A stretch of 42,739 nucleotides of DNA, taken from NCBI GenBank assembly GCA_011053145.1, contig DRLC01000043.1:1-42739 (forward strand), given 5' to 3'. The notes below the pieces were generated by a model. The model ran no database searches. It saw only the letters and a list, made by a program, of their open reading frames with translations, and was not told the DNA's origin. A program made the position numbers and the translations under genes. This document shows, in pieces, positions 30,516-31,803 of the stretch. This DNA is from Planctomycetota bacterium (lineage in GTDB: Bacteria; Planctomycetota; UBA1135; GCA-002686595). The first letter of the stretch is position 1. Each line of letters starts with the position of its first letter.

Positions 30516-30740
30516 ATGACCACAGAACGCATTCTCCGCGGAATCGCCGGATTCTTCATCCTGCTCTCGATCCTGCTCGCCGGAGGTCTCGGCCAGGTGG
30601 AACTCGGCCGTCCGACCTGGATCTGGTTCACGGCCTTCGTGGGCCTGAACCTCCTGCAGTCCGCCTTCACGGATTGGTGTCCGATGATGGCCCTGCTCCG
30701 AAAATGGAAGCAGGGGGGGCGAGTGATCCACCCCGGGTGA
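30516..30740 (+). CDS. DUF2892 inner-membrane protein, C-terminus inside a palindromic element
   Basis: The protein has 74 residues. The ATG at 30516 has a strong GGAGG site. Two hydrophobic segments (about 8-24 and 33-52) and the family signature FVGLNLLQSAFTDWCPMM identify DUF2892 (the YgaP membrane part). These proteins sit in the inner membrane, sometimes fused to rhodanese; the Cys in DWCPM is conserved. The last eight or so codons (GGRVIHPG and the stop) lie in the left arm of the palindrome at 30715-30942. The native C-terminus may therefore have been replaced or extended by that element. Confidence 0.88.
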   Translation: MTTERILRGIAGFFILLSILLAGGLGQVELGRPTWIWFTAFVGLNLLQSAFTDWCPMMALLRKWKQGGRVIHPG

Positions 30741-30942
30741 TCCCCTGCGAAGGTGGGGCGAGGGGGTTTCCCCTGGGTGAGGCAGGGTTTCGAGGAATCG
30801 ACCCAGTGTGATGCCCGCTTTCCGTGCCCGGTCTTGGCTTTGCCCGAATCGGGGACGGAAAGCGGGCATCGCCATGGGTCGATCGCCTCCACGACCCTCT
30901 TCACCGTCGCAGGGGATCACCCGGGGTGGATCACTCGCCCCC
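30715..30942. repeat. 228-bp near-palindromic element with 36-bp perfect outer arms
   Basis: Bases 30715-30750 are the exact reverse complement of 30907-30942 (36 of 36). A second perfect stem of 16 bases pairs 30810-30825 (GATGCCCGCTTTCCGT) with 30855-30870, and a nine-base stem pairs 30797-30805 with 30875-30883. The tip loop is about 19 bases (30831-30849). The left arm has about 23 extra unpaired bases near 30757-30784. The outer arm is itself nearly self-complementary (GATCCACC...GGTGATC). No transposase, no clear target-site duplication and no second copy is seen here. The shape fits a MITE-like or other small palindromic mobile repeat, or a large transcribed hairpin. It covers the DUF2892 stop codon and ends 21 bases before the sigma factor start. 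Confidence 0.9.
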
Positions 30943-30948
30943 GTCTCC

Positions 30949-30956
30949 TGTATGGT
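30949..30956 (+). promoter_or_regulatory. Candidate -10 box (TGTATGGT) before the ECF sigma gene
   Basis: TATGGT at 30951-30956, preceded by TG, ends seven bases before the ATG at 30964 and begins nine bases after the palindrome's right arm ends. It would give a leaderless sigma mRNA whose -35 region lies inside the palindrome. The in-frame ATG at 30952 overlaps the box and is a less likely start. Confidence 0.35.
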
Positions 30957-30963
30957 GCCCGCG

Positions 30964-31803
30964 ATGGATTCCACCGAGGGGAACGCGGCGGAGAGGGCCG
31001 GCGACCCGAAGGGCGGGGAACCGCGCGACGAGGCGCTCCAGCGTCTCGTGGACGCCCACGCGGGGCGGCTGTTCTCGCTCGGGATGCACTTCTGCGGCAA
31101 CCGCGAGGAAGCCCAGGACCTGGTGCAGGAAACGTTCCTCCAAGCGTTCCGCAACTGGGACCAGTTCGAGGGGCGTTCGAAAGCCTCCACGTGGCTCTAC
31201 ACGATCGCCTCGCGCGTCTGCCAGCGCTTCCACCGCAAGCGTTCCGGCGAACCCGAGCACATCGGGTCGCTCGAGGAGCTGGTGCCCCTCGGAGAAGCGG
31301 AGATGGCCGTCGTCTCCCCTGCCGGTGAGCCCCTGGCCGCGGAGATGCGCGCGGAGGCCCGCCGGGAGGTGGAGCAGGCGATCGCGGAGCTCCCGATCGA
31401 GTTCCGCATGCCGCTCGTCCTGAAGGAGGTGGTCGGCTTTTCGATCGCGGAGGTGGCGGAGATCCTGGGCCTCAAGAAGGCCACCGTAAAGACGCGCCTG
31501 CACCGCGCTCGGCTGCGCATCCGCAAGGCCATCGAGGCCCCGCTCCCGAAGCGCAGCGTCCCTCCCGCGATCTACTCGCGTCAGGTCTGCCTCGATCTCC
31601 TGCAGGCGAAGCAGGAAGCGCTCGACCGGGGGACGACGTTCCGGTTCCCCGACGACGTCATCTGCGAGCGCTGCTCCGAACTCTTCGCGACCCTCGACCT
31701 CGCGACGGACCTGTGCGGCGAGATCGCCGGCGGCGAGATCCCCGAGGAGGTGCGCGCGGCGCTCCTCTCCGGCCTGAAGGGAGGCCGGGACGAGGATGCC
31801 TGA
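30964..31803 (+). CDS. ECF-type RNA polymerase sigma factor with Cys-containing C-terminal extension
   Basis: The protein has 279 residues from the ATG at 30964. Sigma region 2 spans about 24-95 (RLVDAHAGRLFSLGMHFCGN, DLVQETFLQAFRNWDQFEG, STWLYTIASRVCQRFHRK) and region 4 about 135-190 (LPIEFRMPLVLKEVVGFSIAE, LGLKKATVKTRLHRARLRIR). The roughly 85-residue extension (195-279) has Cys209, then CERC (234-237) and Cys251. It resembles the zinc-finger part of anti-sigma factors fused to some ECF sigmas and may sense redox or metal. No separate anti-sigma gene follows; the RND efflux operon starts 199 bases downstream and is a likely target. Confidence 0.92.
   Translation: MDSTEGNAAERAGDPKGGEPRDEALQRLVDAHAGRLFSLGMHFCGNREEAQDLVQETFLQAFRNWDQFEGRSKASTWLYTIASRVCQRFHRKRSGEPEHIGSLEELVPLGEAEMAVVSPAGEPLAAEMRAEARREVEQAIAELPIEFRMPLVLKEVVGFSIAEVAEILGLKKATVKTRLHRARLRIRKAIEAPLPKRSVPPAIYSRQVCLDLLQAKQEALDRGTTFRFPDDVICERCSELFATLDLATDLCGEIAGGEIPEEVRAALLSGLKGGRDEDA

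Follow-up and report, generated by a model that had tools for sequence, protein, structure and literature searches.

The closest described relatives of the repeat family reported here are the REP, BIME and REPIN sequences of the GTAG and CGTC superfamilies. Like it, they are extragenic units of 20-40 nt, present in tens of copies in one lineage only, and stand singly or as inverted pairs that fold into hairpins. By published criteria a single REP unit is a stem-loop with a stem of 5-13 bp, and a terminal GTAG or CGTC tag is found in over 90% of members in most families (PMC3733652). REP dimers have also been described in the middle of long palindromes, as in A. variabilis GTAG-15 and H. neapolitanus CGTC-1; those surrounding palindromes share a family consensus (PMC3733652), whereas in the present family the arms differ at every site. 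A second precedent is quasipalindrome template switching in E. coli and yeast, in which one arm is copied from the other, the arms become identical and multi-base changes result. Template switching homogenises the arms of short inverted repeats in other organisms (PMC8604942, PMC7202029) and has been discussed at inverted repeats elsewhere (PMC6649704). The known cases fix a few bases within short repeats, however, whereas here stretches of new flank tens of bases long, gene ends among them, seem to have been added repeatedly around one family. The coding palindromes of nematomorph mitochondria are likewise perfect inverted repeats that overlap coding sequence and show concerted arm evolution, but they are not bacterial and are not tied to a dispersed repeat family (PMC6649704).

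The palindrome studied here occupies positions 30715-30942 of the window, the 42.7-kb stretch of DNA analysed, which is the whole of contig C43 in a genome assembly of 4.05 Mb (400 contigs, 91.5% complete). We consider it probable that a dispersed repeat specific to this genome gave rise to the element as a nested, palindromic copy, which then grew through inverted duplication of the DNA on its flanks. Its parts and neighbours are as follows.

30516..30740, + strand: YgaP-like_TM gene (formerly DUF2892), with PF11127 over residues 2-66 of 74
30715..30755, + strand: left outer arm, its first 36 bp perfectly complementary to 30907-30942
30725..30745, + strand: truncated unit (positions 1-21) in the left outer arm, profile score 12.3 bits, E 0.03
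30764..30795, + strand: tentative degenerate unit (GGGTTTCCCCTGGGTGAGGCAGGGTTTCGAGG), lacking an inverted counterpart on the right
30797..30832, + strand: left unit of the inner pair (positions 2-37), profile E 4.9e-9
30831..30849, no strand: tip of 19 nt
30848..30884, - strand: right unit of the inner pair (positions 1-37), profile E 4.8e-7
30902..30942, - strand: right outer arm; 21 bp separate its end from the sigma-factor ATG
30912..30932, - strand: truncated unit (positions 1-21) in the right outer arm, matched by profile and pattern
30951..30956, + strand: TATGGT, a possible -10 box read from the sequence, 7 nt before the sigma ATG and outside the palindrome
30964..31803, + strand: ECF sigma-factor gene with PF04542 and PF08281

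An earlier note on this DNA had described a 228-bp inverted repeat with 36-bp perfect outer arms, a 16-bp inner run and a 19-nt tip, the inner arms diverged and the outer ones exact, and its coordinates and anatomy hold. The outer arms pair at 40/41 positions, with all of the outermost 36 matched, and the inner arms (30797-30830 and 30850-30883) pair at 30/34, including the 16-bp perfect run, around the tip. These two arm pairs are the only ungapped inverted repeats scoring at least 16 across the 42.7 kb, and the predicted fold of 30705-30952 has a dG of -197.7 kcal/mol (z = -13.66), a stability reached by 0/200 dinucleotide shuffles. The near-palindromic look of each outer arm, which the note had also remarked, is that of the GATCCACCCCGGGTGATC fragment of a 38-nt family unit. 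Units are found in both the inner stem and the outer arms, and the remaining outer-arm sequence is unique to the site; by blastn, the left outer arm outside its unit fragment is not repeated elsewhere in the genome. A pattern search with two mismatches also matched 30726-30747 in the left outer arm, and the tentative unit at 30764-30795, where the profile gave no match at E<=1, was recognised by eye against loci L178, L184 and L167. The inner unit pair has an arm-arm identity of 86%, with five unshared changes. The window element is a compound copy of the dispersed family and not a private regulator of the sigma gene.

When the element was compared with its own genome by blastn, its inner part matched at many other places and its outer arms did not. 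Two consensus searches and two pattern searches placed the unit at about 60 loci, a copy number based on search matches; the second pattern had 72 genome matches vs 2 for a reversed control pattern. The profile was built from 66 units, with the 38-nt consensus GATCTACCCTGGGTGATGCCCGGTTTCCGTGCCCGGTT. An unbiased 214-kb sample of the genome held no profile match at E<0.1, and one degenerate copy in it (C4) surfaced through a palindrome scan. Units occur alone or as inverted pairs and are almost always intergenic, only about 4/52 sites lying inside a gene predicted by a hexamer model, which, and not curated annotation, supplied the gene calls around the copies; convergent neighbours are commoner than divergent ones. 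Seventeen inverted unit pairs form hairpins, with arm-arm identities of 69-100%. An 89-bp consensus had no match in plasmids or in 60 genomes from the same family and order but other genera, the exact core pattern had none in viral contigs, and the family appears so far only in this one genome.

The family thus has the many short extragenic copies in one genome that define REPs and the inverted doublets that define REPINs. REP membership was nevertheless rejected, on two counts: folds of single units are not significant hairpins (z -1.06, -1.07 and +0.61), and no tag is fixed, GTAG being present in just 15/59 units and GGAG, GTGG, GGAA and others taking its place. Unlike REPs and REPINs, moreover, the copies have outer arms unique to each site and come with no detected Y1 (RAYT) transposase. 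The search for PF01797 found no match in the assembly, with 6/14 control genomes positive, and a RAYT/Y1 origin was dropped; because the assembly is 91.5% complete, this absence may not be final. The earlier suggestion of a mobile repeat stands as far as multiple copies with variable flanks are concerned, as its proposed blastn check of the rest of the genome bore out at about 60 loci. Its classical MITE form is unsupported, with no Y1 transposase, outer arms not repeated elsewhere and no target-site duplication; the proposed comparison of flanks for short duplications gave a mean direct-repeat score of 3.8 vs 3.4 for the cross-site null at 12 simple pairs. At the same 12 pairs, mostly 0-2 T follow the element within 10 nt on either strand, and the intrinsic terminator was dropped as a candidate on the lack of a T-tract, C287, outside this set, being a possible exception. 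A known RNA family was ruled out, since no Rfam family matches in the window.

What sets this family apart is the DNA around the units. For each of 48 unit clusters, the right flank was reverse-complemented and the left flank aligned to it; the null comprised all 2256 pairings in which left and right flank came from different sites. The scores of 8/48 clusters exceeded the 99.9th percentile of the null and ten had p below 0.004. Flanks form inverted repeats unique to the site in about 10/48 clusters (about a dozen places overall), and most clusters have no flank duplication. For the window palindrome the flank score is weak when taken alone (p_null 0.028 against the cross-site null), and unique sequence is limited to 10 bp on the outward and 10 bp on the inward side of its outer unit fragment. 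The clusters with flank arms are listed below.

C53: 33/34 bp
C360: 31/31 bp
C117: 27/29 bp
C184: 22/23 bp
C287: 17/17 bp
C180: imperfect arms of 50 bp
C157, C306, C108 and C373: flank arms also present

Eight further sites gave two clean inverted pairs and no flank arms. A palindrome scan covered a 534-kb genome sample, 320 kb of which came from contigs picked for carrying copies, and found eleven ungapped inverted repeats scoring at least 20. Family loci account for six of them and a second palindromic family for three; of the other two, one carries a degenerate unit (C4) and one is unrelated (C66). The site-specific arms include stop codons, C-terminal codons, promoter-like boxes or start codons of the neighbouring genes. 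Stop codons are contained in the arms at C306, C308 and C180; at the divergent pairs, both start codons lie inside the arms at C53, and the arms reach within a few bp of the start codons at C360.

Several palindromes were noticed beside these. The second family, in the same genome, lies at L254:3376-3500 and L254:4630-4736 (C24) and at L273:5212-5308 (C27); its arms of 47-61 bp are nearly perfect and its core is GTCAGGACCATTCCCTCCAG, with TACGGTGTC in C24. TACGGTG motifs like those of this second family occur in palindromes of the relatives G030 and G016. The unrelated inverted repeat (L269:3247-3320, C66) lies between convergent genes; its 34-bp arms are perfect, its loop is 6 nt long and it has no family unit. 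In G016, L292:538-678 is a palindrome with 70-bp perfect arms and a 1-nt loop around a GTACGGTGGCGGGACC motif, possibly the product of the same growth process with another repeat.

Two loci could be compared with relatives that keep the same genes in the same order, and the comparison of empty sites covers these two, the relatives available at the window site being non-congeneric. At C180, a protein without a Pfam match and an EamA transporter converge, and their tails, MGGLRD and MGGWRD, lie inside the two arms. Five relatives keep this convergent pair; their tails are unrelated, and no inverted repeat there scores higher than 10. At C4, a CaxA-like antiporter gene and an agmatinase-like gene converge across an 89-bp gap that holds a degenerate unit, and a 25/27 inverted repeat spans the last codons of both genes. 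Six relatives retain the convergent CaxA-agmatinase pair; there the genes lie 24-33 bp apart, without an inverted repeat. Since the same gene order occurs there without the palindrome, the palindromes at C180 and C4, arms included, were acquired in this lineage, as template switching predicts; the conserved order across both also argues against misassembly there. The ending AL..R is common to the agmatinase homologues and the gene here, whereas the antiporter homologues have other endings, which makes the agmatinase end the probable source at C4 and the CaxA tail the recipient.

The arms within a copy also resemble each other more than they resemble other copies, arm-arm identity in the inverted unit pairs averaging 93% within a site vs 78% between sites. 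This is what is expected if the arms are copies of each other, and selection for pairing predicts the same. At C109, C166, C122, C308 (971-1057) and C373, the two arms share 4-9 departures from the consensus, and neither arm has one of its own. Such shared changes would fit arm-to-arm copying or selection for pairing, not the independent decay of a transposed palindrome. Older copies, the inner pair of the window among them, are decaying. In the window the outer arms are better preserved than the inner ones (1/41 vs 4/34 mismatches), which would make the outer ring the younger, as expected of outward growth and opposite to nesting by insertion; with so few mismatches, this order of ages is only suggestive. 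At C308 (L261:1-2828), a family palindrome follows each of two tandem duplicate genes (94% identical over 957 bp); although these palindromes now differ from one another, the arms within each are nearly identical.

The genes beside the window palindrome were named correctly in the earlier note, as the Pfam matches listed above confirm, but its statement that no protein is encoded in the element does not hold. The palindrome starts at codon 67 of the 74-codon YgaP-like_TM gene, and the left arm holds the codons from there on together with the stop codon (30738-30740). The PF11127 match stops just before the palindrome, at residue 66, and many homologues sharing the DWCPMM core end at 61-63 aa (tblastn), so the last YgaP-like residues (GRVIHPG) come from the palindrome. 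A run of seven G lies at 30713-30719, at the end of this gene. The neighbouring frame reads GGE-stop (GGG GGC GAG TGA), with the TGA at 30724-30726 in the left arm, and judging from the reading frames the native gene end may lie inside the left arm, by way of a shift in the seven-G run.

On the other side, the orthologs of the sigma factor in relatives (49-67% identical) have no family palindrome upstream and no YgaP-like neighbour, and the adjacency of the two genes is not conserved; upstream of one ortholog (L197) there is a 21-bp inverted repeat, but an unrelated one. A conserved regulator of the sigma gene was ruled out on these grounds, and the cruciform controlling the sigma factor, once put forward for this site, loses support with it. 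At C360 (L172:1235-1327; C360:10334-10426), the regions upstream of two divergent genes, encoding a ketoacyl synthase III and a DinB-like polymerase, are mirror-identical. TACCAT precedes a start codon there by the same 7-nt spacing as TATGGT precedes the sigma ATG, and both may be leaderless promoters.

Considering these results, we propose the following course of events. The 38-nt unit is, as documented above, scattered over about 60 places, nearly all intergenic, singly or as inverted pairs. The sequence beside a unit, extending into the ends of neighbouring genes, is then repeated in inverted orientation on the other side of the unit, and a long near-perfect palindrome results, with outer arms found at that site only. 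This inverted duplication is seen in the family, and for the window copy we infer it. The duplication itself may be made by hairpin-primed template switching, in which the nascent strand would fold at the unit or its hairpin, extend on itself while copying the flank backwards and return to the original template; later switches would correct mismatches between the arms. Template switching, if it can lengthen arms by tens of bases of flank at a single repeat family, would explain the unique arms, the shared changes, the inclusion of gene ends and the central unit, of which selection for pairing also predicts the shared changes. In the window, an older and decayed inner pair (86%) would lie inside a recent outer round (36/36), for which the 3' end of the YgaP-like gene, along with a truncated unit, was the probable template. 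The earlier note had not foreseen that the outer arms, apart from the 21-nt unit fragment, are unique to the site, probably through inverted copying of the flank. The palindrome would be tolerated where it is located, with a gene end on one side and the promoter of the following gene on the other. Its function is probably neutral, with protection of the mRNA 3' end or insulation of the sigma gene as hypothetical roles that would be secondary at most.

The same palindromes might instead have arisen where palindromes already present, terminators for example, took up units by insertion into their loops; the unique outer arms would then belong to the host site. C287, with 17-bp perfect arms followed by TTCTGTTCCTT, does look like a terminator with a unit in its loop; at C373 unmatched sequence separates the perfect inner pair from the outer arms, a layout that seems to fit insertion into an older palindrome better; and REP dimers lie within longer palindromes in A. 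variabilis, T. roseum and H. neapolitanus (PMC3733652). We nevertheless regard such insertion as unlikely, given the empty sites at C180 and C4, arms that enter the coding sequence of both flanking genes or reach the start codons of divergent genes, where a terminator is unexpected, and a window palindrome whose inner part looks older than its outer part. A REPIN- or MITE-type origin, in which the whole palindrome is a non-autonomous element transposed in trans, would account for the multiple extragenic copies and for the 17 inverted pairs, REPINs often being inverted doublets (PMC3116915). It leaves unexplained why copies do not share outer arms, and it sits poorly with the absence of target duplications, of a Y1_Tnp match in the 91.5% complete assembly (positive controls worked), of a significant hairpin in the unit alone and of the GTAG tag from all but 15/59 units; we think it quite unlikely.

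Selection on RNA would produce symmetrical substitutions without any copying, if the hairpins are 3'-end or terminator structures whose pairing is kept by compensatory changes, and the very stable folds, the intergenic position and the excess of convergent over divergent neighbours agree with this. Yet the elements are followed by no T-tract and match no Rfam family, copies lie between divergent genes and extend up to start codons (C53, C360), and perfect site-specific arms of thirty bases, with duplicated coding ends, are more than termination needs, which makes this explanation very unlikely. Fold-back chimeras, of which the earlier note had warned, or misjoins at repeats come to mind in an assembly as fragmented as this one, with its 400 contigs, but different genes continue on either side of the palindromes, relatives conserve the gene order across those at C180 and C4, and the family recurs at about 60 loci with divergent copies; an artefact is therefore highly improbable.

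Inverted duplication of flanking DNA around the unit remains our preferred explanation. It is conceivable, although we doubt it, that the 38-nt unit is a palindrome-growing repeat that actively nucleates this duplication, perhaps with the help of a protein dedicated to nicking or stabilising its hairpin; such a repeat would rewrite gene tails and hand the promoter of one gene to its divergent neighbour. A full-text literature search, which covered few subscription papers, found no description of repeats of this kind whose flanks are duplicated in a site-specific manner. The usual view is that extragenic palindromic repeats move as fixed units. Here, one repeat stands at the centre of many palindromes whose arms are made of local DNA, with stop codons, last codons and promoter regions among it. 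If template switching acts in this way, it would give bacteria a repeatable route to new protein tails and mirrored upstream regions, and the origin of long perfect bacterial palindromes would become testable by comparison of strains.
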